DNA of 64,000 nt from Neorhizobium sp. JUb45. Its GTDB lineage: Bacteria; Pseudomonadota; Alphaproteobacteria; Rhizobiales; Rhizobiaceae. Below the pieces are notes generated by a model, which saw nothing but the letters and a program-made list of their open reading frames with translations, ran no database searches and was not told the DNA's origin. A program made the translations under genes and the position numbers. Below, piece by piece: positions 1,795 to 37,100 of the stretch. The stretch lies in assembly GCF_004343585.1 (NCBI RefSeq), contig NZ_SLYW01000009.1, forward strand, positions 1 to 64,000, in the 5' to 3' direction. Within the stretch, counting starts at the first letter, position 1, and the number at the start of each line of letters is the position of its first letter.

Positions 1795-1801
1795 GGCTCT
1801 A

Positions 1802-12984: not shown

Positions 12985-12996
12985 CGCTGACTGACC

Positions 12997-13851: not shown

Positions 13852-15500
13852 ATAGTTCGATTTGGGTTGTGCATCGCATTCGTTCCCGTCGTCGGCGCTC
13901 CAGCATCCAGGTATGCTAGATAACGTGGCGAGTCCTTCAGCAGATACGCTCGTCCGTCGACCACGAATCCATCCAGTCCGTGTTCGACGGCGTAGGCATC
14001 AAGATCAACCATGTTGTTGATGAATCCCTTGCCGTTGAAATTAAGAGACGTGTTGCAAAGCACTCCGTAACCGGTGCGCGATCGGAATGCTTCCAGCAGG
14101 CTGCACAGTTCCATGTTGCTGGACGGCGTCACCGTTTGGAGGCGAGCCGTCCCGTTGACGTGGGTGACAGCCGAGAGAGCATCGGTGGTTGCACGGTAGG
14201 TGTAGAGCATATGAGGGCTTTCACGGTCGCATCCGAACCACTTCTCGGCCTCGTCCTGCAGGCAGATAGGGGCAATTGGTCGGAACTGTTCGCGCTGTTT
14301 GATCTCGTTCAGGCGAACCCTTGTCGCATCTCGAAACGGAGCTGCCAAGATTGATCTGTTCCCCAGCGCGCGAGGTCCGATCTCATAGCGGCCATGCGCC
14401 CATCCGAGGATAAGGTCGTTAGCCAGCATTGCCGCAACCCGGCTATCATCTTTCTCATAGATGTCGTACCTGCTCGGGTCGATCGGACTGTCCGTCCGGA
14501 AATCACGACCCGAGTATACGCTCCAGTCGATCTTGGGATTGCCAGTAAAGTAGAACTGCGCATCGATAGCGGTGCCGATCGCCGATCCCGAGTCGTTGGC
14601 GACGGGGGGAACGAAGATCTCAGAAAAGAGATTGGTGTCCCTCCATTTGGAATTCCAGTCGCAGTTTAGACCGCAGCCGCCAGCGATCAAGAGTGGCAGC
14701 CCGCCCCTCAGATTCTCCCTAGCAAACCTGTGAAAGCGGTCGAAGATCGCATCGCTGTATATGCCTGCGAAGTTCCGGAACTCCGCGTCGTCGAGTCCAA
14801 CATTGAGGTGCGGCGCGTCTGCAATCCGGTCGTAATCGCTGAGCTTTCGATAGGGATCGCGCAACAGGAAGCTCATCAGTCGCTGCTCCTCCGCCGTGGG
14901 GACGTCGCGTGTCGAGAACGATGCGATCGCCATCAACTTGCCGGCGTCAGAGGCGCGGGGGTAGGGCCCGTCCTTCGGAAAGGTGGGATCAGCCAGCCCG
15001 TAGAGAAGTCCGTACCGGTTTCCGGGCTGTGTGAGCGCATCGCCGATCAGCGTGATGTTGAGCTCCGGATCGATCTCGTAAAAGGAGCCCACCTCTCCTT
15101 CCCAAACGAGCGCGTAGCATGCAGTGCCCTTCGGGAAAGGTGACATGCCGAAGGCGCAAAGAATATGCGATCGCTCGTGCGACGAAGAGAAGTAGTCGAC
15201 CCTGCCTCGAAGCAACCGTCCCTTGTCCACGATGGTGCTCGAGCCCGAGACGCCCCGATAGCCCGAGTTACTGTGCGATCCGTGAAGATACTCGTGATGG
15301 TCGCGGGGCCACCACCCTCCCATGCATATGACATCCGGCAAATCATCAAGCTCGCCAATGGCGTCGAGGATGTCGGCTACTGACACATACGAGTATCGGT
15401 AACCGGAGTCCTTCTCCGCCTCGATCGAAAACATCAATCGGGAGTCCCGGAGATATGCGATCGCGCCGTCGTGGCCAGGATTGTATGAGAGAATTTTCAT
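13848..15500 (-). CDS. Carbamoyltransferase, NodU/CmcH family
   Basis: A 550-residue carbamoyltransferase that would transfer a carbamoyl group from carbamoyl phosphate to a hydroxyl of a sugar or small molecule. The N-terminal Kae1-like domain starts MKILSYNPGHDGAIAYL, and the C-terminal YrdC-like domain has the family signature GRYEIGPRALGNRSILA, then REQFRPIAPICLQ and CNTSLNFNGKGF. NodU decorates Nod factors and CmcH cephamycin; here the partners are two glycosyltransferase genes, so a carbamoylated glycan is the best guess. The start at 15500 is preferred to the open frame start at 15557 because family members begin with this strand, although the ribosome binding site is weak. It is the first gene of the operon. 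Confidence 0.88.
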   Translation of the reverse strand: MKILSYNPGHDGAIAYLRDSRLMFSIEAEKDSGYRYSYVSVADILDAIGELDDLPDVICMGGWWPRDHHEYLHGSHSNSGYRGVSGSSTIVDKGRLLRGRVDYFSSSHERSHILCAFGMSPFPKGTACYALVWEGEVGSFYEIDPELNITLIGDALTQPGNRYGLLYGLADPTFPKDGPYPRASDAGKLMAIASFSTRDVPTAEEQRLMSFLLRDPYRKLSDYDRIADAPHLNVGLDDAEFRNFAGIYSDAIFDRFHRFARENLRGGLPLLIAGGCGLNCDWNSKWRDTNLFSEIFVPPVANDSGSAIGTAIDAQFYFTGNPKIDWSVYSGRDFRTDSPIDPSRYDIYEKDDSRVAAMLANDLILGWAHGRYEIGPRALGNRSILAAPFRDATRVRLNEIKQREQFRPIAPICLQDEAEKWFGCDRESPHMLYTYRATTDALSAVTHVNGTARLQTVTPSSNMELCSLLEAFRSRTGYGVLCNTSLNFNGKGFINNMVDLDAYAVEHGLDGFVVDGRAYLLKDSPRYLAYLDAGAPTTGTNAMHNPNRTM

Positions 15501-15734
15501 CTTGAGTCTTGATCGTTGAACCGCCATGACATCACGCGGCCAGGTGCAAAATTGCAACCGCTCTTAGAGCGGATCGGCACTAAAGTTGTGATGCGACAGC
15601 TTTAAGCTGTGGATGGCGACAATGCTTGTGGGAGGCGGGGATATTTGCGCTGGCTGGCGAAGTGCAGACGTTTTTAAACGGCGGCCGTCCAGCTCGTCTT
15701 GATGCACGCCACGTATAGTGACTCGGATCGAGAC

Positions 15735-16004: not shown

Positions 16005-16827
16005 CTATGGAAACTTCGAGGCTGCGCTTCGTGGGATCGAGTTCTGTCTTATCAAAAAAGCATTGATCGAGTTGAAAATCAGCTCTTAAAGGATGATTTA
16101 ACGGCCCGAATTCGTCTTGGAGTTGTTCAAACTTCCGCGAATGTCGAGCGTCATTCGAATTCTGTTGGAAGTTTCGTCTCGGGCAAAGATTCCTGGCTTC
16201 GGATCTCCTTCGAAGTCACGAATATTTGCGACGGAACTGCTCTCCAACGTGGGTGTCTCAGCCCAACTGCCGGATAAATGCAACAATCCACTGAGACCGG
16301 TCCAGTGGGGCGATCTCTCGATCTGAAACGGTTTCCTGAGTATACAACACAATTACATGTGGAATGCCGAGGTTGGCGGGTTAGCCGTCGCGAGTCTATA
16401 GCTATCATCTGCAGATTCGCTTCCGACGCCATAGTGGATATTAGAGAGTAAGTATCTGGCCGTGTTTGGAATATTTCACGCTGGTGTAGCCAATGAATGA
16501 CGGGGCCTGCTGTTCGACAGCGCTTCTGCATATCCTCAAAGCCGACGCTAGTTCATGTTGTCTTTGTCTACATGACAGGTAAATACTGCCAGCCTGCGAC
16601 CAACCTCTTTCGGGCTGGTACAGGCACGTCTCCGACCATTGCTCGAAAGCGTGATCAACTGTCTATCAAGGGGTATCGAGACGGCAGTGATCTCAAACGC
16701 CAACGAGAAACTTCACTCCCCATGCTCAGGCCGTTTACATCTGAGGCTCCTGCCGGAAACAGATTCTGTGGAAAGTTCGAAATTGGTTCTGACGCGAATT
16801 GATCCATCACAACAACTTTATGTAATT
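16005..16827. other. Gene-poor stretch before the CBASS locus
   Basis: About 800 bp of lower-GC sequence with only short open frames on both strands, none with a convincing start signal or recognisable domain. It separates the glyco-operon from the CBASS genes and looks like decayed or non-coding DNA. No terminal repeats of an insertion sequence were seen. Confidence 0.5.
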
Positions 16828-16833
16828 TATAAT
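16828..16833 (+). promoter_or_regulatory. Putative -10 box (TATAAT) of the CBASS operon
   Basis: A perfect TATAAT lies 23 bp upstream of the GTG at 16856. It overlaps the ATG at 16832, so a transcript from this promoter could not use that ATG. No good -35 is seen at 17 bp; an extended or activator-dependent promoter is possible. Confidence 0.4.
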
Positions 16834-16855
16834 GATCTCAAAAAGGGACGGCAGC

Positions 16856-17500
16856 GTGTTTAAAGAACATGAATATGCCTTGTTAGGCGGATTGAACCGA
16901 TCCAACGTTGGCCGGCATTTGGGGAGACTTGCTGCCTTGATTTCCGCCGGTATCGTTTTCCTCCTCCTGTCGGCAGTCGATATCGCTGCCCGCTACGGCC
17001 TCCCTGTGAATCTGCCACCTACAGTGCTGTCTCTTGTCGGTGCAAGCATGGTATTTGGAGCACTGTATTGGTTTTTTGATCGCTTTCTGTGGCGTTGGCC
17101 CATTCTTGGGCGAATATTGAAAGTCCCGGATATCAGCGGCAAATGGGACTGCGAAGGACGCACATTCAACCGAGCGGACGGCACATTCCGAAACGACTGG
17201 GAAGGGAAGATTACCATTGTGCAGTCATGGGATAAGCTGTTTGTCCGCCTCAAAGGCCCTCAGTCAGGCTCCCATAGCATCGCCGCAGCGATAACATGTG
17301 ACCCGATAGAAGGATATCACCTGCTCTACAACTATGTGAATGAGCCCAAAGCAGGCGAAGCCGATCTGAAGTCCCATCGGGGTTTCGCGCAGATTACATT
17401 CGCGGGCGATCGCCAATCGGCCGAAGGTGAATACTTCAACGGCTTTTCGAGAGATACCTTCGGAACCCTCAAACTGACGAGGGCTGAGAATGGCTCGTGA
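16856..17500 (+). CDS. cap15: CBASS effector Cap15 (two transmembrane helices + beta-barrel cyclic nucleotide receptor)
   Basis: A 214-residue membrane effector. It has two transmembrane helices (about residues 25–45 and 56–76), then a beta-rich domain from about residue 91 (VPDISGKWDCEGR, WEGKITIVQSWDKLFVRL, GFAQITFAGDRQSAEGEYFNG) like the Cap15 receptor barrel. In Cap15, binding of the cyclic nucleotide made by the partner enzyme causes oligomerisation and loss of inner membrane integrity, killing infected cells. The GTG at 16856 is chosen because AGGGA lies 7 bp upstream, and because the ATG at 16832 coincides with a TATAAT box. It overlaps the nucleotidyltransferase gene by 11 bp. Confidence 0.82.
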   Translation: MFKEHEYALLGGLNRSNVGRHLGRLAALISAGIVFLLLSAVDIAARYGLPVNLPPTVLSLVGASMVFGALYWFFDRFLWRWPILGRILKVPDISGKWDCEGRTFNRADGTFRNDWEGKITIVQSWDKLFVRLKGPQSGSHSIAAAITCDPIEGYHLLYNYVNEPKAGEADLKSHRGFAQITFAGDRQSAEGEYFNGFSRDTFGTLKLTRAENGS

Positions 17501-18617
17501 TGTAAATAAACGGCTCGAACAGCTCGCGAAGCGCCGCAAAGGGACTGATCGTCTCGGAGAGCTTAATTATGCTGAGCAAGCAGAGGTCCTCAATAAGAGC
17601 ATTCTGGACGAATCTTGGCAGAAACGCGCTCTGGACAAGCCCAATACGCGTTACGCCTTGGGGGCCATGCAGGCCGTTGATCCAGAGTACACCCGTATCA
17701 GTTTGGATACGGCAGAGCGCGTAGGCAATCAACTTCTTACCAGACTGGAAAATCACGGGCTTTTTGTAGAATTCCGGATCCAGGGGTCTGTCGCGCTGGA
17801 TGTACATATCCGCGGCGTGAGCGACGTCGATCTGCTGACGTTGGACAGATATTTCTATTCCTACAATCGATTGGGACCGAAAGGCGGCAGCTACAGCGGC
17901 CTAGGGACCACAGAGTCCTCCCAAGAACGCCTGATGAAAATCAGGTTGAAATCGGAGGTAGCGCTAAAAGACGCCTTCCCAGCCGCAACGGTCGATAAAT
18001 CCGGCGGCAAGGCAATTGCCGTTTTTGGAGGATCGTTGGCACGGCCGGTAGATGTCGTCCCTTCCCATTGGTACGATACGGCGGAATACCAGACGTCGGG
18101 CCGCGAAGCGGACCGAGCCGTGACCATTTTGGACAAGAATGTTCCTACAACCATCGACAACTGGCCTTTTCTTCACATCCAGAAAATCCATGATCGAGAT
18201 TGCTCAGTAGCAGGGGGGGTGAAGAAAGCCATCCGCCTTGCCAAGAATGTAAAAAACGACGCTGAAACGGAAGGCACTACGATCGCCCTACCCAGTTTTG
18301 ACATCGCCTCTATCATGTATCATGCCGACCTCCAGGTGCTCTCGCGAGGGAGCATTTACGAGCTTTCTGTACTGGCTGAGGCCCAACGGCACCTCAATTT
18401 TCTTTCCAATAATCAGAGCTACGCACTGACACTCGAGGTGCCCGATGGTTCACGGAAAATCATCGACAAGGTCGAGAAGTTCAACGCATTACAAAAGTTA
18501 TCATTTGAATTTGATGACTTGGTGCGCGAGGTAGCTAGAGAACAGGGTAGGAATTTAGGTCTTATTCCTAGCCTTCAGGAACAGCGCAACATCCTACAAG
18601 ACAGCTATATTTTGTAG
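17490..18617 (+). CDS. CBASS CD-NTase (cGAS/DncV-like nucleotidyltransferase)
   Basis: A 375-residue nucleotidyltransferase of the SMODS/CD-NTase type. The catalytic core is visible: G99-S100 in IQGSVALDV, the metal-binding D112-x-D114 in VSDVDLLTL, and the third acidic residue D188 in RPVDVVPSHW. These enzymes make cyclic di- or trinucleotides on phage infection to trigger the linked effector, here the Cap15-like membrane protein whose gene it overlaps. No Cap2/Cap3 or HORMA/TRIP13 genes are adjacent, so this is a minimal two-gene (type I) CBASS. Nucleotide specificity and clade cannot be set from sequence alone. Confidence 0.88.
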   Translation: MARDVNKRLEQLAKRRKGTDRLGELNYAEQAEVLNKSILDESWQKRALDKPNTRYALGAMQAVDPEYTRISLDTAERVGNQLLTRLENHGLFVEFRIQGSVALDVHIRGVSDVDLLTLDRYFYSYNRLGPKGGSYSGLGTTESSQERLMKIRLKSEVALKDAFPAATVDKSGGKAIAVFGGSLARPVDVVPSHWYDTAEYQTSGREADRAVTILDKNVPTTIDNWPFLHIQKIHDRDCSVAGGVKKAIRLAKNVKNDAETEGTTIALPSFDIASIMYHADLQVLSRGSIYELSVLAEAQRHLNFLSNNQSYALTLEVPDGSRKIIDKVEKFNALQKLSFEFDDLVREVAREQGRNLGLIPSLQEQRNILQDSYIL

Positions 18618-19639: not shown

Positions 19640-20111
19640 GGTACGCAATGGAGCTCAAGCATCAGCCGCATGTGCTGGATACACATCTGACGCGTGATGA
19701 ATTCCTTGCCTTCGAGACTTATCCACATCTGTTGCGGTGGTACCGCGCCATCACAGCACGGCTGTCCGTGGCGCACGGTTGTCAGCCGCATATCGGGCGC
19801 ATCCGGCGAGGTCCTGCTGACGCGGGTGACGCGCTTAGATTGGGTATTATTCCCCCAGCAATTTCTCTTGAAGAGAAACATTCTCCGCCTATTTTTGGCA
19901 CTTGAAGATCGATTTCAACTGTATTTTTTACGTTATTAAAAAAGCTGCCGGGGACGGATGCGGGAACTCATAAGCGCTCAGCTGTGGCGTCTGCTCACGG
20001 AATTGTTCTTGCGCGGCTGTCATCTCTTCGTTGGGCTGCGGCATCACCTGACAAAGCATGACTGAAACACCGGAACGCTGTTACGGCCGCGACGCGGGTT
20101 GAGGAGTATTG
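19640..20111. other. Intergenic region upstream of the DUF4132–MoxR operon
   Basis: About 470 bp with no supported gene. It must contain the promoter of the five-gene operon; a GAGGAG ribosome binding site lies 5 bp before the ATG at 20112. Overlapping short frames on both strands show no recognisable product. Confidence 0.5.
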
Positions 20112-23100
20112 ATGAAGTTCGTTGAAGGTTTGAAAAAGATCATGGGTGGTGGCCGGTCCGAGACGGCAGCGATCATGTCGGCGGAAAGCGGGCTGACAGT
20201 CAATGACAGGCAGGCGATCATCGAAGATTTTGCGGCGTTCGAAGAGGTCGAGAAAGGGCTAGGGGCGGCGCTTGCGCGTTATGTCGTTGCCGGAACCGAT
20301 GAAGCCATGGTGCTGCATGTCGTCAACCTGATGAACAGCGGCAAGGATGATGTGGTCTCAAAGCTGCACGCCACCTTTAACGGTTATGATCATCGTGACG
20401 ACCGCAAGGCGGAAAACCAGCGTCGACGGGAGGCGCGGCAGGCGGTCCTCGTTCGCCCCGAAGGCTTCGATGCCGCGGCGATGCTTCGCTACATGACCGT
20501 GCATGGCAAATATCAGGGTCAGCACAGATGGTCGCGCCTTCCGGGCAGCGACAGCGCGCCCTTCTGGCTGCGCACCGCTGTCCAGATGATAGACAACAAT
20601 GTGTATCATAAAGACGGCGGATCCGCTTTCCTGACGGCGCAACGTGCCTTCGACATGATGACTGCCGCCGGCATCCAGCCGAGTGTCGGCACCCTCATCG
20701 ACTGCGCCTTCATGGACAAGGAAACCACCTACGGACAGAGCACCCAGCGCATGCTGGGCCTCCCCGGCCTTGACGAGGCGATGCTGGCCATGCCGGCCGA
20801 TGCGATTGCGATGATCGGTACGCTGACGGCTGGGGCGCGCGAAATCATGGTGCGTTTCGTCGGGCAGGCCGGCCTAGTCGATCACGACCTGCAATTTTTC
20901 GATTTCGCCTTCGCCATGGCGTCCGATGGGTCCAAGGCGGTGCGCGAAGCCGCCGCGATCGCCCTCAAATCGGGTGAGACGGCGAAGGTGCAGGCGCGTG
21001 CGGAGGAACTGCTGGCCTCACGCAAGGCCGGCGAACGGCTGGCCGGTGTCAATATTCTGGCGGCGCTGTTGCGCGAAAAGGCACTGCCGGTGCTCGATAA
21101 ACATGAGGCGGGGGAAAAATCCAGCGCGGTCCTGGCGGCGATCGCCACCACGCGCGCGACCTATGCGGCGGCAGGCGGACAGTCTGCCGCAAGCGACGAC
21201 GGCCGCGTCGACGGGCCGGATGGTTACGTCGCCTTCGACGGTCGTTTTGTGCCGGTTCCGGCCTTCTCTATGGACGAGGACGCTCTGCCGGAGGATCTGG
21301 AAGCGGCCTTCCGGGATGTGCTGACCAAGGCCAATGCCGAGGCACGTGTCGATTACGACCGGACGCCGCCGGGCAAGGACTGGAACCAGCGGCCGGCCAA
21401 GCCGTTCGTGGCGCCCTTCGATCCGGCCGTCGCCAAAAATATCGTCGCCGCCATGCGTGGCGATACGCTGGATCAGGCGAAAACGAGGGCCGTCTGGGAA
21501 GCCATTGACGCCAACAGCCCCGATCACTGGATGCGACAGACCCGAAAGGCAATGGAAGCCGGGTTCAAGACCATTTTTGCCCGCAGCGACGTGCCGTTCC
21601 CGGCGCTTGCCCGTCTGTTGTTCTGCGCCTCCGACGGCCGGAGCTGGGTGCATATCCTGCGTGTTTTGCTGGGAGGCTCGGAATATTGGCTGCGCGGACC
21701 GGACAAGGAAATCATGGCGCGGCTGAAGGCCGGCACGGATATTCGTGTTCTGGCGCAGGTGGCCGATCAGGCGGGCGTGCCTGATGTGTCGCGGAACCTC
21801 AATGCCGTGGCGGAGCGGACCTATATCAACCTTGGCGAAATGATCGACGAGCCTGTCCCGTCCACACTATGGATGCTGCTGGCCGACGATTTCGCAGCGC
21901 TCGACGCAGCACTGGCGGGCGACGGCATGCAGGAACGCTGGACCGAGGATTTTGTCTATTCCTGGCTGCGGACGTTCCCGCACTTGCCGCGAAGGTATTT
22001 TCCACTCGTTGCCGATCGCGCCCTTCAGGCGGGCGTGCGCCAGCGTGATTTTTCGCGCTACCTTTTGCGTGAGGTCGCGGATCTGACACCGCTGATCGTG
22101 CCGATGCTGACATCGGGCCCGGAAACAAAACGCCTTGCCGCGGCGCGCTGGCTGGCCGAGCGTCGTGATGCCAGCGCCATCGCCCCGCTGCGCGAGGCGT
22201 TGAAGAAGGAAAAATCCGTGGCGGTGCGCGCCGCCGCCATGACGGCACTGGCCGCCTGCGGTGACGACACGTCGGATTTCTTCTCCAAAAAGACGCTGCT
22301 GGCCGAGGCCGAAAAGGGACTAGCATCCACCAAGGCGGATTATTCGGCTCTGTTCGATGCGGAAAACCTGCCGGTCCTGCATTGGGCGGATGGGCGCGAA
22401 GTTTCGCCAATTCTGGTGCGCTGGTGGTTCGCCCGCTCGCACAAGCTGAAACTTCCAGGCGGTGACCCGATGATCCACATGGCCCTGGAAAGGCTGGACC
22501 GCAAGGATGCCGAAAAGCTCGGCGCCGCGATCTTTTCCGCCTTCATTTCCTGCGACACGCAGCGACCGACCAGCGAGGAAGCTAATGCCTATGCTTCGGC
22601 TGGGGCCAAGCAGCGTTACAACTACACGAAACAGTGGCGCAAGGATTTTACCGAGGAACTTGCCTTTGCCGAACTGCGCCGCGAAAAGCTGGCAATCTAT
22701 CTCAACAGCGCGCTCGACCATCGCGGCCTGCTGGCGCTGGCACGGTATGCGCCGCCGGCCGAAACCACGATCCTAGTCAAACGCTTCCTGAAGGATCACG
22801 GCAAGCGCCCGAACCAATGCCGTGCGCTGCTGGATGCGTTGATGGCCAATCCGGTGCCGCAGGTCTTGCAGCTCATGCTCACCGCCTCGCAGCGCCACAA
22901 ACAGCCAGGTCTGCGCAAATATGCAGGTGAGGTGGTGACCGCATTTGCCGAAAGCCGTGGTTGGACACCGGCCGAGCTTGGCGATCGCACCATTCCTTCG
23001 GCCGGTATCGATGAGGATGGTATTCTCGAACTGCCTATTGGCGAGCGTACTTACCGCGCGCGGCTGACCGTTGAACGTGCCAAGAATGGCAAGGAAGAGA

Positions 23101-23984
23101 TGAAGCTGGCTCTGGAAAATCCGGACGGCAAAACGATCGCTTCGCTGCCGAGCCCGACCGATCCGCAGGAAGCGGAAGAGGCAAAGGACGCCAAGAAGCT
23201 GCTTTCCAGCGCCAAGAAGGAATTGAAGCAGACGGCCGAACTTCAGGCCGGTCGTCTTTACGAAGCCATGTGTGCGGCCCGCATCTGGCCGCGTGAGGAT
23301 TTTGAAGCCTTCCTGCTCAACCAGCCGATTGTCGGACGGCTGCTGCGGCGTCTGGTGCTGAGCGGATCTGACGAGCAGGGCAAGCTGGTCACCAGCTTCC
23401 GGGCGCTTGATGATGGTTCGTTTACCGATGCCAATGACGATCCGGTCGACATTACCAGTTTCGCCGGCATTGCCATCGCACATCGCGTCAAGCTCGGCGA
23501 GGAAGCGGCCAAGGCCTGGCTCACGCATATCGAGGATTACGAAGTCAAACCGCTGTTCGAACAGCTCGATCGACCAGTTCTTGCCGATGGCAAGCCGGAC
23601 GCCACCGTGATCGACGACCGCCGTGGCTGGATGATCGATAACCTGACGTTACGCTCGGCCGCCGAAGGCCTCGGTTATATCCGGGGCCCCGTCGAGGACG
23701 GCGCCGGTTTCTACACCTATGAAAAGTCCTTTGCGGATTGTGGCTTTGCGGCCGTGATCGAATTCACCGGCAGTTATATCGGGGAAAATGACCGCGTCCT
23801 GAAAGCGCTGCAGGACATGCGATTTGCCCGCATCCTGCCAGGTGGCCGCGTGGTCTATGGTGGTGAAACGACGCTGTCGAAAGTGCCTGAAGTGCTGCTC
23901 AGCGAAACCTGGAACGATCTGCGCGCAATCGCCGACAAAGGCACCGGCTTTGATGCCGAATGGGAGAAAAAGGCATCATGGTAA
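20112..23984 (+). CDS. DUF4132 domain protein (YehI/MolR-like), first gene of MoxR–vWA operon
   Basis: A very large 1290-residue cytoplasmic protein, mostly alpha-helical with HEAT-like segments (for example KRLAAARWLAERRDASAIAPL around residue 680 and RAAAMTALAACGDD). The C-terminal DUF4132 region lies at about 1040–1230 (AELQAGRLYEAMCAARIW, then HRVKLGEEAAKAWLTH, then EVKPLFEQLDRPV). It resembles E. coli YehI. Biochemical function is unknown; in this gene order it may be a scaffold or substrate adaptor for the MoxR ATPase. The ATG at 20112 has GAGGAG 5 bp upstream and is preferred to the TTG three bases earlier. Its stop overlaps the ATPase start. Confidence 0.85.
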   Translation: MKFVEGLKKIMGGGRSETAAIMSAESGLTVNDRQAIIEDFAAFEEVEKGLGAALARYVVAGTDEAMVLHVVNLMNSGKDDVVSKLHATFNGYDHRDDRKAENQRRREARQAVLVRPEGFDAAAMLRYMTVHGKYQGQHRWSRLPGSDSAPFWLRTAVQMIDNNVYHKDGGSAFLTAQRAFDMMTAAGIQPSVGTLIDCAFMDKETTYGQSTQRMLGLPGLDEAMLAMPADAIAMIGTLTAGAREIMVRFVGQAGLVDHDLQFFDFAFAMASDGSKAVREAAAIALKSGETAKVQARAEELLASRKAGERLAGVNILAALLREKALPVLDKHEAGEKSSAVLAAIATTRATYAAAGGQSAASDDGRVDGPDGYVAFDGRFVPVPAFSMDEDALPEDLEAAFRDVLTKANAEARVDYDRTPPGKDWNQRPAKPFVAPFDPAVAKNIVAAMRGDTLDQAKTRAVWEAIDANSPDHWMRQTRKAMEAGFKTIFARSDVPFPALARLLFCASDGRSWVHILRVLLGGSEYWLRGPDKEIMARLKAGTDIRVLAQVADQAGVPDVSRNLNAVAERTYINLGEMIDEPVPSTLWMLLADDFAALDAALAGDGMQERWTEDFVYSWLRTFPHLPRRYFPLVADRALQAGVRQRDFSRYLLREVADLTPLIVPMLTSGPETKRLAAARWLAERRDASAIAPLREALKKEKSVAVRAAAMTALAACGDDTSDFFSKKTLLAEAEKGLASTKADYSALFDAENLPVLHWADGREVSPILVRWWFARSHKLKLPGGDPMIHMALERLDRKDAEKLGAAIFSAFISCDTQRPTSEEANAYASAGAKQRYNYTKQWRKDFTEELAFAELRREKLAIYLNSALDHRGLLALARYAPPAETTILVKRFLKDHGKRPNQCRALLDALMANPVPQVLQLMLTASQRHKQPGLRKYAGEVVTAFAESRGWTPAELGDRTIPSAGIDEDGILELPIGERTYRARLTVERAKNGKEEMKLALENPDGKTIASLPSPTDPQEAEEAKDAKKLLSSAKKELKQTAELQAGRLYEAMCAARIWPREDFEAFLLNQPIVGRLLRRLVLSGSDEQGKLVTSFRALDDGSFTDANDDPVDITSFAGIAIAHRVKLGEEAAKAWLTHIEDYEVKPLFEQLDRPVLADGKPDATVIDDRRGWMIDNLTLRSAAEGLGYIRGPVEDGAGFYTYEKSFADCGFAAVIEFTGSYIGENDRVLKALQDMRFARILPGGRVVYGGETTLSKVPEVLLSETWNDLRAIADKGTGFDAEWEKKASW

Positions 23985-25078
23985 GCACGGATCAGGCAGT
24001 TCTCAGACCCGCACCGGAAAGCCAGCACAAGGTGGAACTCGCAAAGCTCCTGGCGGCGGATACCGGGTTGAAGCCGCCGGGCTGGCGGCTTTCGGCCCGT
24101 TCCGTGCGGGCATTCATTCTCGGCGATGTGTCGCTTGGCATCACTCGAAAATTCTATGGCGACGATGCGCTTGTCGAACGGGCAATCGTCAGCCTGATGG
24201 GCGAACAAGGGCTGATGCTTGTCGGCGAGCCGGGTACGGCGAAGTCGATGCTGGGTGAGCTGCTCTCGGCCGCGGTGACAGGTTCGACACGGCTCGTCGT
24301 GCAGGGATCGGCGGGAACCACCGAAGAACATCTGCGATATGGCTGGAATTATGCTCTGTTGATCGCCGAAGGGCCGAGCGAAAAGGCGCTGGTGCCATCG
24401 CCCGTCCTGCAGGCCATGCGAGCAGGGGTAATCGTGCGCATCGAGGAGTTGACGCGTTGCCCGCCGGAAATCCAGGACGGGCTGATTTCCATCCTGTCTG
24501 AAAAGATGATCGCCATTCCCGAACTCGGAGAAAACGCGATCGTTCGCGCCGCCCCGGGTTTCAACATCATCGGCACCGCCAACCTGCGCGACCGCGGCGT
24601 TAGCGAGATGTCGAGCGCTCTGAAGCGACGCTTCAATTTCGAAACGGTGCATCCGGTCACCGATCCGGCCTTCGAGCGTGAACTGATCCAGCGCCGTTTG
24701 GCCGACAGGCTTACGCCGTCGGGAATAACCCCGAACATGCCTGGCGCAGCGCTCGATATTCTCGTCGCCTGTTTCCAGGATCTGCGGGCAGGGCGCACGG
24801 CAGAGGGGATCACATTGCAGAAACCGACGGCCGTGATGTCGACGGCTGAAGCCGTCAATGTCGCGCATGCGGCGGCGCTCGAAGCGGCCTATCTGGGCGA
24901 TGGCACGGTCACAGGCGCGCATCTGGCCCGCCAGATCGGCGGCGTGGTGCTGAAGGACGACCCCGAGGATGGACGCAAGTTCAAGTCCTATGTCGATCAC
25001 ATCATCAAGGACAGGGCGCGTTCGGGTGGCGACTGGCGATCCTTCTACGACGCTGCGCGCGGGCTGAGGCTCGACTGA
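23978..25078 (+). CDS. MoxR-family AAA+ ATPase (YehL-like)
   Basis: A 366-residue AAA+ ATPase. Walker A is GEPGTAKSM (about residue 82), Walker B VIVRIEELTRCP, sensor 1 GFNIIGTANLRDRG, and an arginine-rich segment SALKRRFNFE. MoxR ATPases act as remodelling chaperones together with vWA proteins, here encoded two genes downstream. The ATG at 23978 overlaps the stop of the DUF4132 gene (ATGGTAA) and has GGGAG/AAGG upstream; the frame also opens at 23960 but without support. The gene order equals that around E. coli yehL. Confidence 0.92.
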   Translation: MVSTDQAVLRPAPESQHKVELAKLLAADTGLKPPGWRLSARSVRAFILGDVSLGITRKFYGDDALVERAIVSLMGEQGLMLVGEPGTAKSMLGELLSAAVTGSTRLVVQGSAGTTEEHLRYGWNYALLIAEGPSEKALVPSPVLQAMRAGVIVRIEELTRCPPEIQDGLISILSEKMIAIPELGENAIVRAAPGFNIIGTANLRDRGVSEMSSALKRRFNFETVHPVTDPAFERELIQRRLADRLTPSGITPNMPGAALDILVACFQDLRAGRTAEGITLQKPTAVMSTAEAVNVAHAAALEAAYLGDGTVTGAHLARQIGGVVLKDDPEDGRKFKSYVDHIIKDRARSGGDWRSFYDAARGLRLD

Positions 25079-27583
25079 ATGGAAACGCAGGCGGCAGAAC
25101 GCGACGGTTTCATCAAGTACGGTGAAAGGCTGACGGCGGGCGAAAACGGTTTCGTTTTTTTTCCAATCCGCCACCATAGTCCTGCCTGCGCACTCAATCT
25201 CGCCTCTGCTTTTGCGGAGATCCGACCGCGGGCCCTGGTGCTCGAGATGCCGTCAGATTTTGCACCGATTCTACCTTTGCTGTCGCATCCAGACATTCGC
25301 CTGCCGATCGCCATCGTGTCGGTGGCCGAGGGTGAAAAATCGACAGACGAGCGGCTGCCGGTCGGCTACTGGCCGTTTTCGGCAACCTCGCCGGAATGGG
25401 TGGCGATCCGGCTGGCGCAGGACATCGGCTGCCCCGTCATCCTCGCGGACCAGCACAGCGGTGCACGCATTGCGGCAATGCGGGCGGATGTGAAGCGCCG
25501 GGCGGACGATGCGGATGGTGACGAGACGGAAAAACAGGAAAAAGCCGATGACACCGCGCCGTCGCTTTTGACCGAAGAACGGCAGCTTGCCTACTCGGAC
25601 TATGCCGAGGAAGTGGTGCGGCGGTTGGGCGTGCGCGATTTCAACGAAGCATGGGACCGTCTGTTCGAAACACGTGTGACCGACAGTGACTGGCGCGGTT
25701 TTTTCCGCGATGTCGGCATCCATTGCATGCTATCGCGGCTGGCGACACCGGAGACGGAGATCGCCGCGGATGACACGCTGGACCGCGAAAAGGATATGCG
25801 CAACGCGATGGCGCAAGCGGCGGCCATTGCCGGGGAAGGACCTGTTGCGGTTGTGACGGGCGGCTTTCATACTCCGGTGCTAATTGATCCACAGGCAGGA
25901 TCGGGGTCGGACAGGCGCAAAGCTGCGATGCCGGTTCAGACGAAGCCTTATCTCGTGCGTTATACGCATGATCATCTCGATCGCATCAACGGCTACGGCG
26001 CTGGCATGCCTTCGCCGCGCTGGTACGAACGGCTGCATGACCGTGTGCGTGATGGTGCCATCGATCCGTTTACCGAAGCGGCGACCGACATCGTGCTCGA
26101 CCTCTCGGCACGGCTGCGCGGTGACCGGCCGAATTTCACGCCGCCATTGCCGGCGCTTTCCGCTACCCTGCAACATGCACAGGCGCTTGCAGACCTGCGC
26201 GGATTGCCGGGGCCAGGGAGGGCCGAAATTCTCGATGCGGCGCGTTCCTGCCTGCTGAAGGGCGAGGATCCACGTTACGGTTCGCCGCTCTTGGACGCGC
26301 TTCTGTCCGAATTGACCGGTGAAGGCATCGGCGAGGTGCCGCGCAGTGCAGGTGCGCCACCGCTGGTGGAGGCCGTTCGCAACCGTGCGCGCGCGCTGGG
26401 TTTCAAGATCGATGACGGTACCGAACGCAATCGTCTCCTCGATATCCACCGTAAGCCGCGGCATCTGGCGGCCAGCCGTTTCCTGCATGCGATGACTTTG
26501 CTCGGCAGCGGTTTCGGCCGCTGCGTGCGTGGACCGGACTGGGCGAGCGGCGCCTCCACCGATGTCCTGTTCGAGGAATGGGTCTATCGCTGGTCTCCGG
26601 CCGTTGAAAGCCGATTGGTGGCGCTGTCCGTTGATGGCGATACCGTCGAGCGGGCGGCGCAGGCGATTCTGTCACGCAAGCGGAGGGAACTGGGGGAGGA
26701 CGGGAAAGATCGCAATGCCGTGGCTGCGATCCAGCTTCTTATCGTCGCGGCACAGGCAGGACTTGCTCGTTCCTGCGGGGCACTGATCGCTGCCATCGTG
26801 CCGGCGGTTGCCACCGATCCCGATCTCGGTCGCGTTGCCATCTGCCTGTCCATGCTCGACAATCTGCAACGCGGTCGAAAGGTGCTGGGGCTGGCCGGGA
26901 TCAGTGGACCAGAGGAATTGCGCCTTGCTGCCTATCGCCGGGCTATAGACCTGTTGCCAAATCTCGAAAACGCCAAGGAAGAAGATGTGCCGCGTTACGT
27001 AACGGCTTTAGCAACATTGAACGAAATCGCCGAAGCCGGAGCGGGGGAGGGCGAACAACCGCTGGATCTTGATCTGTTGGATGAGGCCGTCGCCGCGTTG
27101 ATGGAGGCGAATCTGGCGCCACGGGTTGCCGGCGCAATAACGGCGCTGGCACACCTGTCCGGCCGCGTTAGCGCCGAGGCGCTGGCGACGCGGGTGATCG
27201 GCCCGTTTCAGTTCAGTGTTGGCGAACCGCAGGAGCGCATTGAGCCTCTGACCGGCCTTTTGGCGGTGCAGCCGGCACTTCTCAAGCGTACCCCTCTTTT
27301 TCTGCAAAAGCTGGATCAGGCTCTGGCCACACTCGATGAGAGCACGTTCATCGAGGCGCTGCCGGCCCTGCGTTATGCGTTCACGGCGCTGGCGCCGAAT
27401 GAAACCGATGCTTTGGCTGCCGTTATCGCTGATGCCAAGGGCGGCAAGCTGGACCTTGCCCCCCGACTGGCCGGTAGCCTGACAGAGGCGGAGATGCTCG
27501 CCAATATTCGGCTCAATGCCGGTTTCGCTGAACTTATGCAGGAAAACGGACTTGGTTCTTGGCTTGGGGAGGAAGATCGATGA
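25079..27583 (+). CDS. DUF5682 family protein (YehM-like)
   Basis: An 834-residue protein. The N-terminus has the family pattern FFPIRHHSPACALNLASAF followed by PRALVLEMPSDF, and later IHCMLSRLATPETE and VVTGGFHTPVL, which suggests an alpha/beta TraB/ChaN-like domain; the second half is helical. The role is unknown. It starts directly after the ATPase stop (TGA then ATG) and overlaps the vWA gene by 4 bp. It is found with MoxR, vWA and SWIM proteins in many bacteria, so it is probably a part of one complex or pathway. Confidence 0.85.
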   Translation: METQAAERDGFIKYGERLTAGENGFVFFPIRHHSPACALNLASAFAEIRPRALVLEMPSDFAPILPLLSHPDIRLPIAIVSVAEGEKSTDERLPVGYWPFSATSPEWVAIRLAQDIGCPVILADQHSGARIAAMRADVKRRADDADGDETEKQEKADDTAPSLLTEERQLAYSDYAEEVVRRLGVRDFNEAWDRLFETRVTDSDWRGFFRDVGIHCMLSRLATPETEIAADDTLDREKDMRNAMAQAAAIAGEGPVAVVTGGFHTPVLIDPQAGSGSDRRKAAMPVQTKPYLVRYTHDHLDRINGYGAGMPSPRWYERLHDRVRDGAIDPFTEAATDIVLDLSARLRGDRPNFTPPLPALSATLQHAQALADLRGLPGPGRAEILDAARSCLLKGEDPRYGSPLLDALLSELTGEGIGEVPRSAGAPPLVEAVRNRARALGFKIDDGTERNRLLDIHRKPRHLAASRFLHAMTLLGSGFGRCVRGPDWASGASTDVLFEEWVYRWSPAVESRLVALSVDGDTVERAAQAILSRKRRELGEDGKDRNAVAAIQLLIVAAQAGLARSCGALIAAIVPAVATDPDLGRVAICLSMLDNLQRGRKVLGLAGISGPEELRLAAYRRAIDLLPNLENAKEEDVPRYVTALATLNEIAEAGAGEGEQPLDLDLLDEAVAALMEANLAPRVAGAITALAHLSGRVSAEALATRVIGPFQFSVGEPQERIEPLTGLLAVQPALLKRTPLFLQKLDQALATLDESTFIEALPALRYAFTALAPNETDALAAVIADAKGGKLDLAPRLAGSLTEAEMLANIRLNAGFAELMQENGLGSWLGEEDR

Positions 27584-28740
27584 GCGACCGGAAAGGCTCT
27601 GAAGAAAGCCTTCGCCGTTGGCGGCTGGTGTTAGGCCGCTTCGCCGAACAGCAGCTTTCGGGTGCCTGCTCGGCCGACGATCTGCGCCGTGATGCTGCCC
27701 TCGACCGGATCTATGGCGAATCCTATCGTCGCCGGGGTATCCGCACCGGTGGCCCGCAGGCCAAGGCGAAGAACCGCAAAGGCGGCACGGAACCGCCGCA
27801 GATGACCATGCCGGAATGGTATGGCGAGATGCGGTCATTGTTTCCGCGCTCAGTCCTTGAGCAGGTCGAAAAAGATGCGCTCGGACGGTTCGGCATGACC
27901 GAGCTTCTCAATGACCCCAAGGCATTGGCAGAACTGACACCCGATCCTTCCCTCCTGGCGGCGCTTTTGTCCCACCGTGGGCGCTCTGACCCTGTCGTGG
28001 CCGAAAAAATCCGGCAGGTGGCAAAACGTGTTGTAGAGGAACTGACCAAGCGGTTGCGGCTGCAGTTGAGCCGCGCCATGTCGGGTGCGCGGCGCCGTGG
28101 TGAAACCACAGCGCGCCGATCGACTGCCCGCGACATCGCCTGGAATGATACGATCCGCAGGAACCTGAAAAATTGGGATAGGGAGAGGCAGGTTCTGATC
28201 GCCGAACATTTGCGTTTTCACGCATCTGCGCGCCGTCATTTGCCATGGCGCATCGTGTTGTGCATCGACCAGTCGGGCTCGATGGCAACATCGCTGATCT
28301 ATAGCGCAGTGATGGCCTCCATCCTTTCCACCCTCCCGGCGGTGACCGTCAAGCTCGTTTTGTTTGATACCACGATTGTCGATCTTAGCGACGAGATCGG
28401 CGATCCGGTCGATGTGCTGATGTCGGTCCAGTTGGGCGGCGGAACCGATATCGGCAAGGCTGTCGCCTATTGCGAGGCAACCCATATCGCCCAGCCGGAG
28501 CGGACAGTCTTCGTACTCGTGTCGGATTTCTGCGAAGGCGCGCCAGCCCGTAATCTGTTTGCGGCAGTGCGCAGGCTTGCCGCCTCGCGCGTGAAGCTTC
28601 TCGGACTGGCCGCATTGGATGACGCGGCCCAGCCTGCCTATGACCGCGATACGGCTGCGCGTCTGGCGGACGCCGGCATGGAGATCGCGGCCCTGACGCC
28701 GGAACATTTTGCCGATTGGGTTGCGGGGCATATGCGGTGA
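27580..28740 (+). CDS. vWA domain protein (YehP-like), MoxR partner
   Basis: A 386-residue protein with an N-terminal basic helical region and a C-terminal von Willebrand A domain. The MIDAS is complete: D-x-S-x-S in LCIDQSGSMATS (about residue 229), threonine in GGGTDIGKA, and aspartate in VLVSDFCEGAP. vWA proteins of this kind bind targets under control of MoxR ATPases. The ATG at 27580 overlaps the DUF5682 stop (ATGA) and follows a strong GGGGAGGAAG ribosome binding site, so the open extension to 27559 is dismissed. It overlaps the SWIM gene as GTGA. Confidence 0.92.
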   Translation: MSDRKGSEESLRRWRLVLGRFAEQQLSGACSADDLRRDAALDRIYGESYRRRGIRTGGPQAKAKNRKGGTEPPQMTMPEWYGEMRSLFPRSVLEQVEKDALGRFGMTELLNDPKALAELTPDPSLLAALLSHRGRSDPVVAEKIRQVAKRVVEELTKRLRLQLSRAMSGARRRGETTARRSTARDIAWNDTIRRNLKNWDRERQVLIAEHLRFHASARRHLPWRIVLCIDQSGSMATSLIYSAVMASILSTLPAVTVKLVLFDTTIVDLSDEIGDPVDVLMSVQLGGGTDIGKAVAYCEATHIAQPERTVFVLVSDFCEGAPARNLFAAVRRLAASRVKLLGLAALDDAAQPAYDRDTAARLADAGMEIAALTPEHFADWVAGHMR

Positions 28741-30905
28741 GCAAAGCCAAGATGGACACATCGGTGATGTTCGATGCCACGCCCCTGAGCGACGAGGTGC
28801 TCGAAGCCGCGTCTTCCAGAGGCTTGTTGCGTCGTGCCCGTCGTGACGTTGAAGCCGGGTTGGTGCGGATTACCGGACGAGACGGCGGAACCATTTTGAC
28901 GGAGGCCGATGGCGAGACGGTACAGTTGCCTGCCGGCCCGCTTTCGGCGGCGCGTTGCAGTTGCCCCGCGAGCGGCCTTTGTCGCCATATCCTCGCCAGC
29001 ATCGTGTTTATTCGCGAGGCGGAGGAGGTAAACGCTTCTCCAGCCGCTGAAGAGGAGATTACGCACACACAGGTCGGGCCGGGTGAGCCACTTTCCTCGG
29101 CGCCGGTTGTGGCCGCGGCGGAAAACGAACCGGGCGAGCCGGACCCCAAGCCGGACATCCCCGCGGAGATACGGGCGCTCGGCGATGCCACGATCGTCAA
29201 GGCATTCGGTCGTGCTGCCCATATCCGTGCGCAGGCGCTGATCGCCGCGCTCGAGCCCAACGATATCCGCATGGAAGCGAACGGCAACACTCTGCGTATC
29301 GAACTCGGCACGCATCCGGTCGTCCATTATCTTGCCGGCGGCGGACCGGCCGGAATGATTTCTAAATCGACCAGTTCGGAACGTATGGTGTTGCATGCGG
29401 CCGCGCTGGTGGCCGTCCTTGGTCCGGCAAATGACCGTAAGGCTGACGATCCGACAGAGGTGGCGTCGGATGTGGCGCCTGGCCTCGGGGCGGCGGTGTC
29501 CGCGGACAGTCTGGCCGATGCCACGCTTTTGCTTCGGCATGCGGCGCGGCTTGCTCTTTCGAAGGCACCAATTGGCCTCGAAGAGCGAACAGCCGACCTG
29601 ACGCTGTCGTCGCGGGCGGAATCCATTCCCCGTCTCGCCGCCGAATTGCGCACGATTGCCGCGATGATCCGGCGGCGGCGTGAGCGGCTGGATGGGGCGG
29701 AACCCGCCGACCTTTTGCGCATGCTGGCGCGCAGTTATGCCTTGATCGAGGCACTGAAAACCCGACCTTCCGACCCTCTGCTGAGTGGTTTCGGTGGTGA
29801 GGCGCCACAGAAACGGGCGGCAATCGATCTTGTCGGCTGCGGTCTGCAGCTATGGCAGACAGACAGTGGTGCACGTGGAGTGACGGGTTATTACATCTCC
29901 GCCGAAGGTGAAAATTTTAATGCGACGCTGGCGCGTGGTGCCGGCAGTGATACGTCTTTTTCGCCAAGTGGAGCGGCAACCGGCGACCCCGTCTTCGGGC
30001 ATTCGTTAGCGGCTTTGGCCGGACGAGCATTCCGTCTTGATGGTGGTGCTGCTACCAGCACCGGCCGCCTGCAGGTCGGCGGCGGTCGGGCACATGTCGA
30101 TGACAGGGGCTGGGCTGCGTCGATTGGGGCGATTGATGGTGCCGTCCTTGACGATTGGCAGCAATGCGCCGCCCGGCTTGTCGCAAATTTCAGGCCTAAA
30201 CTGGCAATGACGCCGCGCCGCGCCGTGCCACTGGTGTTGAAGCCTACGAGGCTTGGCGCCCTGCGTTTCGATGAGGTGTCGCAGGTTGGGTACTGGCCGA
30301 TCGGCGACATGCATGGTGCGTGGCTGGAATTGGAAATCGATGGTGACGACCGCATGGATGCGAAATTCGAACTGCTTGGTGCGCTTGATGCACGCAAGCC
30401 GCCCTTGATTGTGGTTCTGGCGGAAGAACGCGGCGCCGAGATCCTGATGACACCACTGGGGTTCGGATCGGATGCCCTGACCTTGCTCGACCTGCCGCCT
30501 ATTGCCGATAGACCGCCGGAGCAGAAGGCCAGCCTGCTTTCCCGTCTCGCCAAAGGTCTTTCGTTTTCCGGCACGTCGCGTCACGGCGGCGATGACAGTC
30601 TCCGCTTTGAAGCCATGTCGCTGCCGCGGGCGAAAAGCATGCGGCTGGTATCGGGCGCCTTCGACGGACTGTTGGCGCTGGCCGAATTGGGTGGGCGGAT
30701 GGAAGACGCCGATCGCCTGCAAGCAATGGAACAATCGGGACAAGCTATGGAGGAGGCGGGTCTTATGTTGGCAGGACGATTGGTGGCAAACGTGGCTACC
30801 GCTCCAAGCGCGGAGAGGCCGGACCGCCTGCTGCGCGCAGCCTATGCCCTTGATCTCTTGACAAGGACTGAGCCGCGGCTGCCCTTCGTCAGGCCATTGC
30901 CTTGA
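28737..30905 (+). CDS. SWIM zinc-finger protein (YehQ-like)
   Basis: A 722-residue protein. Near residue 75 it carries a SWIM zinc-binding motif, CxC…CxH, seen as ARCSCPASGLCRHI. An acidic linker and a long mixed region follow. SWIM domains bind DNA or proteins. It is the last gene of the five-gene operon, with a GTG start that overlaps the vWA stop (GTGA); the frame is also open to 28716 but lacks a ribosome binding site. The combination DUF4132–MoxR–DUF5682–vWA–SWIM has been proposed by comparative genomics as an NTP-dependent conflict-type system, though no function is established. Confidence 0.88.
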   Translation: MSKAKMDTSVMFDATPLSDEVLEAASSRGLLRRARRDVEAGLVRITGRDGGTILTEADGETVQLPAGPLSAARCSCPASGLCRHILASIVFIREAEEVNASPAAEEEITHTQVGPGEPLSSAPVVAAAENEPGEPDPKPDIPAEIRALGDATIVKAFGRAAHIRAQALIAALEPNDIRMEANGNTLRIELGTHPVVHYLAGGGPAGMISKSTSSERMVLHAAALVAVLGPANDRKADDPTEVASDVAPGLGAAVSADSLADATLLLRHAARLALSKAPIGLEERTADLTLSSRAESIPRLAAELRTIAAMIRRRRERLDGAEPADLLRMLARSYALIEALKTRPSDPLLSGFGGEAPQKRAAIDLVGCGLQLWQTDSGARGVTGYYISAEGENFNATLARGAGSDTSFSPSGAATGDPVFGHSLAALAGRAFRLDGGAATSTGRLQVGGGRAHVDDRGWAASIGAIDGAVLDDWQQCAARLVANFRPKLAMTPRRAVPLVLKPTRLGALRFDEVSQVGYWPIGDMHGAWLELEIDGDDRMDAKFELLGALDARKPPLIVVLAEERGAEILMTPLGFGSDALTLLDLPPIADRPPEQKASLLSRLAKGLSFSGTSRHGGDDSLRFEAMSLPRAKSMRLVSGAFDGLLALAELGGRMEDADRLQAMEQSGQAMEEAGLMLAGRLVANVATAPSAERPDRLLRAAYALDLLTRTEPRLPFVRPLP

Positions 30906-34171: not shown

Positions 34172-37100
34172 ATGAGTACAGGTGCGGGATTGTGGAAATG
34201 CTCGAACCAATGCGACAGCAACCAGCGTTTTAGCCGCCTTTCACTGGTTCAAATGCTCATTTCGTTCGTCGTGGCATTGTTAGCTGTCGGTGCGACTGGC
34301 TTTTCGCCCGCCTACGCTTTGTCTGCCGCATGCAGCACCTTGAATAACCAGAGTGGGACGACGTCGTACACCGGCCGATTTGCGGCTTCTGCCTTTGACA
34401 CGGGCGAAACGATCACTGTGTCGTTTACTGATAACGGGACGGATCCCAAAACTAATCAAACTGCTTCTGCTAATATTCGACTTTCGACTTACGACCTTGC
34501 CGCAGTTTATGTCTACTCAAGTTATTCAGGCTCTCAAGGACAGCAGTCCGGCACCAACAACTCTCTAAGTACCTCAGGGCTTTATATTGCTTTGAACGCA
34601 CGGACCTACCTCAGCGCTTTCTCCATCGTTTGCTCGGGCCAGCTATCCACACCAAGTGTGATATCTGTGAACCCCAACGCTGGCACGACGGCCGGCGGTA
34701 CTTTGGTAACGATCACCGGGACCAACTTTACCGGTGCGACAGGCGTGACCTTCGGTGGGACGGCTGCGACCAGTTATACGGTCAACAGCGCCACCTCGGT
34801 CACCGCGGCAACCCCAGCGCACGCTGCAGGCTCCGTCGATGTCGTGGTGACCACGGCTAACGGAACGGCAACGCTTTCTAGCGGATATAGCTATACGGCG
34901 GCGAACCTGAGCCTGATGCCTCCTTCTGGAGCACTAAACTCAGGCACCGTCGGCACGGTCTTTTCTCAGACCATTACGGTTTCAGGTGGGAGCTTGCCCT
35001 ATTCCTACTCTGTCAATTCAGGTGCGCTTCCAGCGGGCGTGACGCTCAACACTGCGACTGGTGCCATCGTCGGGACGCCGACGACGGCTGGCAGCTACAG
35101 CTTTGCTGTCACAGCAACGGATGCAAACAACACTGCAGCATCGGCAAGTTATACGCTGGCCATAGCTGCCATATCGGTGCCACTCACAGTCTCGCCGAGC
35201 TCGGGCGCTTTGACAACCGGGACAGTTGGAACGGCTTACAGCGAGGCCGTTTCGGTTTCGGGGGGTACATCACCCTATAGCTATGCCGTAACCTCCGGAT
35301 CGCTTCCTGCGGGTCTGGCGCTGAATACCTCAACAGGGGTGATCTCAGGCACCCCGACGACAGGTGGATACGCCGCCTTCACTGTGGCGGCCACCGATGC
35401 CAACAGCGCAACGGGCAGTGCGAGCTATACGCTCGCCATTGCAGCCGTGGTTCCCGGCGCTCCAACGATCGGGGCAGCAACGGCAGGCGATGGCGGGGCG
35501 ACTGTGTCCTTCACCGCACCGTCCGCCAATGGCGGAGCCGCGATCACCGGATATACCTTCACGGCCAGCCCCGGCGGCGCAACCGCGACCGGTGCGGCGA
35601 GCCCGATCACAGTGACCGGCCTGACCAATGGCACGGCCTATACCTTCACCGTCGTCGCTACCAACAGCGTCGGTTCAAGCGCCGCATCCGCTGCATCCAA
35701 TTCGGTGACCCCGGCGGCGGCCGTTCAGCTTCCTGTTGCCAACAATGTCAGCGCGACGGTTGCGGCCAATTCGTTGGCCAATCCGATTGCCCTCAACATT
35801 ACCGGTGGCGCTGCAAACTCTGTTGCCATCGCATCGAACCCCGCCCACGGCACGGCGAGCATCGCCGGAACATCGATCACCTACACGCCGACGGCTGGTT
35901 ACTCCGGAGCTGACAGTTTCACTTATACCGCGACCAACACGGCCGGAACCTCGACGGCCGCAACTGTCAGCATCACGGTATCGGCCCCAACCTTTGCCTT
36001 CTCGCCAGCGGCTGGCACGCTGACGGGCGCAACGGTCGGAACGGCTTACAGCCAGACTGTTGCAGCCTCCGGGGGCGCTTCGCCCTACACTTATGCCGTA
36101 AGTTCCGGATCGCTTCCTGCGGGCCTGACGCTGGATATGTCGACAGGGGTGATCTCCGGCACACTGACGACGGCTGGAAACGCAAGCTTCACCGTGACGG
36201 CAACCGATGCCAACAATGCAGCAGGCAGTTCGGCCTATGCGCTCGCAGTGACGTCGCAAGCTGTAACACTCACCGTCTCGCCAGCATCTGGTGCCTTGAC
36301 GTCTGGAACAGTCGGAACCGCCTATTCCGGCTCCGTCAGTGCAACGGGTGGGACCGCACCTTACACCTATGACGCTACCGGACTGCCGGCGGGCCTTACT
36401 CTCAACGCCTCAACCGGTACGATATCTGGTACTCCGACGGCAGCTGGCAATTCCTCTGTCGTGGTAACGGTCAACGATAGCAGCACTCCGGCCAATACCG
36501 GTGATGCGAATTACACACTGGCGATCGCGGCTGCTCCGGCCGTTTCCTTCACCTTCTCCCCCTCCGGCGGTGCGCTGACGGAGGCGATGGCTGGCGAAGA
36601 CTATAGTCAGGCCATCTCAGCCACAGGCGGCGCAGCGCCGCTGATCTACAGCCTCTCGTCTGGAAGTTTACCGAACGGCGTGGTTCTCAATGTCTCGACA
36701 GGTGAACTCACTGGCCCGCTGGCCGCTGGATCCGAAGGAGACTACAGCTTTACCATCCAGGCGCGCGACAACAACGGTGATATAGGCACGGCTAGCTATA
36801 CCTTGAAAGTTGCGCCTCGTGCCGTCACCGTCGATGACAAGGTCGTATCGGTTCCAGCTGGCTCTTCACCTGCAAACGTCAATCTGGCGGGAGGGGCGAC
36901 AGGGGGGCCCTTTGTTTCAGGCGATCTGACGTTTGTGGAGCCAGCAAACGCCGGCACGGTCAGTATCGTCAATGGCGAGTTTGCCCAAGCAGGTGGCCCA
37001 ACGCCGACCGGCTGGTACCTGAAGTTCATTCCCAACCCTGCATATGCGGGTCAGGTCCGCATCGGCTTCCGTCTCACCAGCGCGCTCGGAGTCTCAAATA

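Follow-up and report, generated by a model that had tools for sequence, protein, structure and literature searches.

What five adjoining genes accomplish together is the question raised by the first 64,000 nucleotides of contig NZ_SLYW01000009.1 of Neorhizobium sp. JUb45 (this whole stretch is hereafter called the window), in which the plus strand carries at 20112-30905 five intact, co-directional open reading frames (ORFs) for a DUF4132 protein, a MoxR AAA+ ATPase, a DUF5682 protein, a CoxE-type von Willebrand factor A (vWA) protein and a SWIM-type protein. The original prediction had placed these five families on one operon and called it an uncharacterised chaperone-type system. Both statements held: the families are recognized by Pfam matches (the SWIM protein by its motif), and we found no described function. 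DUF5682 is named in no paper of the open literature searched and DUF4132 in three, subscription papers lying mostly outside that search. No study of the homologous E. coli yeh genes as a system was among the matches listed from the open literature, some of which arose because gene names this short coincide with other words.

An answer is suggested by the DUF5682 protein (834 aa; 25079-27583, +; Pfam PF18934, E 5.9e-99; AF2 pLDDT 88.6), in which a ChaN/TIKI-superfamily-like N-terminal domain (approximately residues 20-300) precedes a mostly helical C-terminal part. By profile comparison this N-terminal domain matches, and thus probably lies near, the ChaN (TIKI/TraB/Ere) enzyme superfamily, a placement that is new here. 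A profile of 32 DUF5682 domains (drawn from A2, our alignment of 47 hand-picked complete DUF5682 proteins) met a profile of 26 ChaN sequences (of 29; one, L232, is partial) with a probability of 90.3% and an E-value of 1.5e-6 over 221 columns. For calibration, the same method gave 94.3% for ChaN versus TraB (26 of 27 TraB sequences) and at most 3.8% for four unrelated operon families. Comparison of DUF5682 with TraB itself yielded 7.9 and 8.1% with wider sets and 1.2% with 24 same-genus TraB/GumN proteins, and comparison with an Ere profile of 8 rows only 0.3%. Sequence searches of DUF5682 against solved structures returned no convincing match (best E 0.35 and 0.27), and Foldseek gave nothing but weak matches for both DUF5682 and DUF4132, with none at E ≤ 0.001.

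To this profile match we add a set of ten putative site residues (R31, H32, H33, E56, E106, D124, R236, E237, G261 and H264) that are invariant in 22/22 DUF5682 proteins found by HMM and tblastn without a peptide pattern, i.e. the window protein, 14 from HMM searches and 7 from plasmid loci, with close kin among them. The same ten are invariant in 47/47 sequences of A2 at identities to the window protein down to 23%, R31, H32 and H33 being fixed there by the search pattern. Unless these residues act chemically or in binding, such invariance would be difficult to account for. The catalytic set of the ChaN/TIKI/TraB/Ere superfamily consists of two His and two Glu (PMC6254334); the candidate counterparts H32, E56 and H264 are invariant in the 22 proteins, whereas the first Glu aligns to I30; the TraB consensus GTxH likewise occurs without the first catalytic Glu. 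DUF5682 thus resembles the superfamily in its match to ChaN across the domain and in a GxxH close to the domain end, but differs from it in lacking the first catalytic Glu and in the fusion of the domain to a large helical part. The placement near ChaN/TIKI defines a testable site: H32, E56 and H264.

The genes around DUF5682 are tightly packed. A Shine-Dalgarno-like gaggag, read in the sequence at 20101-20106 (+), precedes the ATG of the DUF4132 gene at 20112, and the junctions predicted originally (ATGGTAA at 23978-23984, TGA|ATG at 25076-25081, ATGA at 27580-27583 and GTGA at 28737-28740) are all present. These overlapping or abutting junctions suggest co-expression of the five genes, not the fixed protein ratio that had been read from them. 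The G+C content of the operon is 62.1% versus 57.9% for the window; promoter and terminator scans gave matches near chance, and LexA boxes showed no excess in the window.

To determine how often the five genes travel together, we scanned species genomes, which hold at least 574 DUF5682 relatives, and kept the best 80 loci, selected with a peptide pattern in which R31, H32 and H33 are fixed. Fifty of these, chosen by DUF5682 alone, are flanked by 8 kb or more of sequence to either side. All five genes are present in 42/50 of these full-context loci, which makes the set more than a chance association; 7/50 have a sister arrangement (see below) and one, L031, has a bare DUF5682 gene. Taken singly, the vWA gene occurs in 49, the SWIM gene in 49, DUF4132 in 42 and MoxR directly upstream in 44. 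In a second set of 59 loci, chosen for all five genes (L003, L004, L005 and L007 were dropped), mean pairwise identity falls from MoxR (0.55) and vWA (0.48) through DUF5682 (0.33) to DUF4132 (0.26) and SWIM (0.24), and identity of the window proteins to the closest same-family operon fetched (G237) ranks likewise (81, 74, 61, 54 and 48%). MoxR and vWA are therefore the most constrained and DUF4132 and SWIM the least, the pattern to be expected if the motor stays constant while the parts that recognise clients vary.

The MoxR protein, which is YehL-like (23978-25078, +; start 23978 according to the ATGGTAA overlap, with an alternative at 23960; Pfam AAA_5, E 9.3e-34), has midasin as its best solved relative by sequence and carries a Walker A motif at 24224 and a Walker-B-like RIEELTR in the stretch from 24428. 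The vWA protein (27580-28740, +; VWA_CoxE, 4.8e-49) has a full metal-ion-dependent adhesion site (MIDAS), made up of the DxSxS from 28267, the T of GGTD (starting at 28438) and the D of SDFCEG (starting at 28522). The Walker A and MIDAS residues are retained in at least 93% of the 59 loci, as are both Glu of the Walker B motif; the earlier claim of complete Walker and MIDAS motifs is thus right for Walker A and MIDAS and needs correction for Walker B, which reads Glu-Glu (RIEEL) instead of Asp-Glu. RavA-ViaA is not known to come with a DUF5682, DUF4132 or SWIM gene. It nevertheless resembles the window operon in that, according to the passage of PMC3893208 concerned, a MoxR and a vWA protein share one operon; the same source names YehL as a MoxR subfamily.

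The two least constrained proteins may be recognition or holding parts. The DUF4132 protein (1290 aa; 20112-23984, +; Pfam PF13569, E 2.4e-33, plus HEAT_2) is a HEAT-like scaffold in which HEAT-like repeats come first, the conserved DUF4132 region next and a C-terminal domain of YugN/ZipA/KA1-like type last; by sequence its best match among solved structures had an E-value of only 0.17. Within an alignment of its homologues (38 scanned of 60 ORFs), HEAT_2 occurs in 19/38 and WGR, a domain linked to nucleic acids, in 6/38, and two or more DUF4132 ORFs, fragments included, are found in 15/50 full-context loci. The SWIM protein (722 aa; 28737-30905, +) carries a CxCx5CxH finger at 28956-28988; its Pfam SWIM match scores 18.8 bits, slightly below the 19.6-bit cut-off. 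The four ligands of this finger are retained in at least 93% of the 59 loci, and 36/56 aligned homologues (56 of 57 ORFs), the window protein included, match SWIM at E ≤ 0.01. No solved structure matched the SWIM protein by sequence.

The original prediction had equated the set with E. coli yehI/L/M/P/Q. Indeed, the E. coli block yehI-(yehK)-yehL-yehM-yehP-yehQ has the five families in identical order; however, it contains the extra yehK and a second DUF4132 ORF, neither of which is in the window operon, and its DUF5682 is just 26% identical to that of the window and falls elsewhere in a midpoint-rooted DUF5682 tree. DUF5682 is near-core in E. coli, as yehM was matched in 5284/5426 complete genomes (in 5166 of them with 80% or more of the gene covered), 5289/5291 places being chromosomal. 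LexA boxes are not in excess at the E. coli locus (8 matches versus 6.65 expected). The block is dispensable in the laboratory, since strain DGF-298 of E. coli lacks it by deletion according to a passage of PMC10652928. The relevant part of PMC9334617 describes 184 ST131 isolates with a disruption in the DUF4132 region of the block. The sister arrangement, SWIM-DUF5691-MoxR-DUF5682-vWA, shares the MoxR-DUF5682-vWA-SWIM core, but DUF5691 replaces DUF4132 and SWIM comes first; the sister operons checked score approximately 800-980 bits against PF18934 versus 332 for the window protein. Plasmids of Rhizobium and Deinococcus are among the places where this arrangement is found, and DUF5682 proteins of both score classes coexist in some genomes.

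Whether the distribution follows the species tree, a check proposed with the original prediction, received a mixed answer: DUF5682 is patchy in the family of the window, near-core in E. coli and partly structured by phylum overall. In any arrangement, DUF5682 occurs in 5/200 genomes near the window and in 14/394 same-family genomes (12 over the cut-off), two partly overlapping sets that both include the window's own genome. One genome of the same genus (G032) has a DUF5682 copy that is 26% identical and stands in a different gene order, while another (G005; L244, 7006-8633) retains degraded vWA and DUF5682 pieces, which shows that the system was lost there. A quick tree (midpoint-rooted, no bootstrap), built with 87 DUF5682 sequences from loci of either arrangement, required 15 changes among nine phylum labels (minimum 8, shuffled mean 42.5), which argues for deep phylum structure with some exchange. 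DUF5682 was matched in 35/72,556 plasmid records, several of them chromosome-sized, and in 1/50,697 phage records, at 24.6%; one peptide pattern had 5 matches in viral contigs, with 0 DUF5682 relatives. As the viral-contig and phage-record searches were near empty, we see no viral origin of DUF5682. Separately, PHROG families of undescribed function (phrog_20839, 30700, 31592 and 29006) have matches in four of the five proteins, a hint that viruses or prophages may on rare occasions carry the operon.

Because an enzyme-like DUF5682 protein sits amid a MoxR-vWA motor, we read the system as a motor-gated hydrolase, that is, a cytoplasmic ATP-driven remodelling complex in which MoxR-vWA would gate a ChaN/TIKI-type hydrolase, a tentative reading to which we give a probability of roughly 0.45. 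The five proteins would form one complex: the MoxR ring would together with the vWA protein provide the motor and the adaptor for clients, much like other pairs of the MoxR-vWA and midasin type, the DUF4132 scaffold and the SWIM protein would recognise or hold the client, and DUF5682, with its hydrolase-type domain on a helical arm, would be the enzymatic subunit to which the motor gates client access, presumably for peptide or ester hydrolysis. DNA damage or general stress is our leading guess for the trigger. The sections of PMC8533742 concerned report that DRA0166 (DUF4132) and DR2173 (WGR) rise upon DdrO depletion in Deinococcus, and those of PMC3978071 place molR on the E. coli SOS list; neither source shows these genes acting together with the five-gene operon. 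Among 114 proteins flanking 35 loci (the nearest two complete ORFs of up to 900 aa per side by a longest-ORF rule; about four sister-arrangement loci and L031 included), no neighbour recurs except in three Proteus species and in one further pair, and the operon therefore looks self-contained and not tied to an adjacent client enzyme.

Other functions have to be weighed against the motor-gated hydrolase. We consider it unlikely that DUF5682 is the proteolytic subunit of an unrecognised class of ATP-dependent bacterial proteases, in which MoxR-vWA would feed clients chosen by DUF4132 and SWIM to the ChaN/TIKI-type site. About equally doubtful is a role in maturing metal centres or cofactors, comparable to that of CoxD-CoxE, NorQ-NorD or Mg-chelatase, in which metal or haem would be carried by the ChaN-like domain: the vWA protein belongs to the VWA_CoxE family, Pfam lists the ChaN family as Cofac_haem_bdg, Kaur 2020 in the part concerned gives CoxD-CoxE as a metal-cluster insertion system, and molR is essential for molybdate use according to the title of reference 69 in PMC8533742. 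However, no client gene was found, the flank proteins recurring only in the Proteus trio and the one pair. Known maturation pairs adjoin their client gene, which counts against this function. In the Deinococcus data reported in that section of PMC8533742, moeA and moeB were unchanged. Somewhat less probable still is a chaperone for protein quality control under general stress or DNA damage, in which DUF5682 has no enzyme activity; the stress-linked DUF4132 and WGR genes (passages of PMC8533742 and PMC3978071) and the laboratory dispensability of the yeh block (PMC10652928, likewise in part) fit such a chaperone, but the ten DUF5682 residues that stay invariant in 22/22 proteins, and in A2 down to 23% identity, speak against it.

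The original prediction favoured genetic conflict, on the grounds that comparative genomics had assigned these types to conflict systems and that two known defence systems lie nearby. The latter are present: a Gabija pair (GajB and GajA, 6278-10560, -; PADLOC E 2.1e-215 and 2.2e-260) approximately 9.5 kb from the operon, and CBASS genes (Cap15 effector and CD-NTase, 16832-18617, +) approximately 1.5 kb from it, with one minus-strand ORF between. In such a system, DUF4132 and SWIM would sense an invading phage or plasmid, MoxR-vWA would set a threshold and DUF5682 would be the toxic effector. This would suit the patchiness of DUF5682 in relatives, the fast change of DUF4132 and SWIM, the duplication of DUF4132 and the plasmid copies beside a type I restriction-modification set (Iodobacter) or a PDDEXK nuclease (Hymenobacter), and MoxR-vWA is a described core of conflict systems in the part of Kaur 2020 concerned. 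Section 7 of that paper pairs MoxR-vWA with VMAP, iSTAND, FtsH or beta-propeller partners; these ternary systems resemble the window operon in adding further components to a MoxR-vWA core, but their third component is one of these four and not DUF5682, and the main text mentions none of yeh, SWIM, WGR and DUF4132, so that the assignment by comparative genomics is unsupported. No FtsH or beta-propeller component had a Pfam match in the five proteins (bpMoxR reached 22.7 bits, below its 27-bit cut-off), and neither did VMAP or iSTAND, although whether Pfam holds both models was left unchecked. Judged by the two testable components, FtsH and beta-propeller, the operon falls outside the four MoxR-vWA systems that Kaur 2020 describes.

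Nor do the neighbours of DUF5682 at other loci favour conflict. PADLOC (E ≤ 1e-10) found five system names in the 114 flank proteins, each model matched by one protein, versus at least four proteins among 133 controls from 35 same-contig stretches, for which the best 25 of 58 families are listed; there is thus no excess, in a comparison of small counts, approximate per model and low in power, and in this sample the argument from defence neighbours does not carry over to other loci. The five window proteins themselves matched nothing in PADLOC beyond a 16-bit match in the HEAT part of DUF4132, and the near-universal, chromosomal yehM of E. coli also speaks against conflict. A conflict function is possible but unsupported, and we hold it to be as improbable as a protease or a maturation factor.

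Several further features were seen in the window. A perfect GTTCN7GTTC repeat, which we take to be the α-proteobacterial LexA-box form, lies at 16775-16789, approximately 43 bases upstream of the CBASS genes; with 3 such matches in the window on both strands and a rough chance estimate of approximately 2, its frequency is near chance. The stretch 118-4479 (+) encodes a VgrG-like type VI secretion spike and, two ORFs further along, a PAAR-like protein that contains a ribonuclease domain. A possible surface-sugar cluster, with genes of the glycosyltransferase, glycosyl hydrolase 16 and carbamoyltransferase types, lies at 10867-15557 (-), a 1315-aa protein with repeated Ig-like and fibronectin-type domains is encoded at 34172-38119 (+), and a ROSE RNA thermometer (58203-58291, +; 47.9 bits, gathering threshold 45) heads the ORF at 58279-58752.

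DUF5682 thus emerges as the signature gene of a system with no described function that we could find; the gene is matched in 5284/5426 complete E. coli genomes, and its loci of either arrangement extend over nine phylum labels in our sample. Its placement near ChaN/TIKI sharpens the notion of an uncharacterised chaperone operon to a specific question, namely whether a MoxR-vWA motor gates a hydrolase, and this question is cheap to test because E. coli K-12 has the genes. Were the protease reading true, E. coli YehL-YehM-YehP would belong to the new class.

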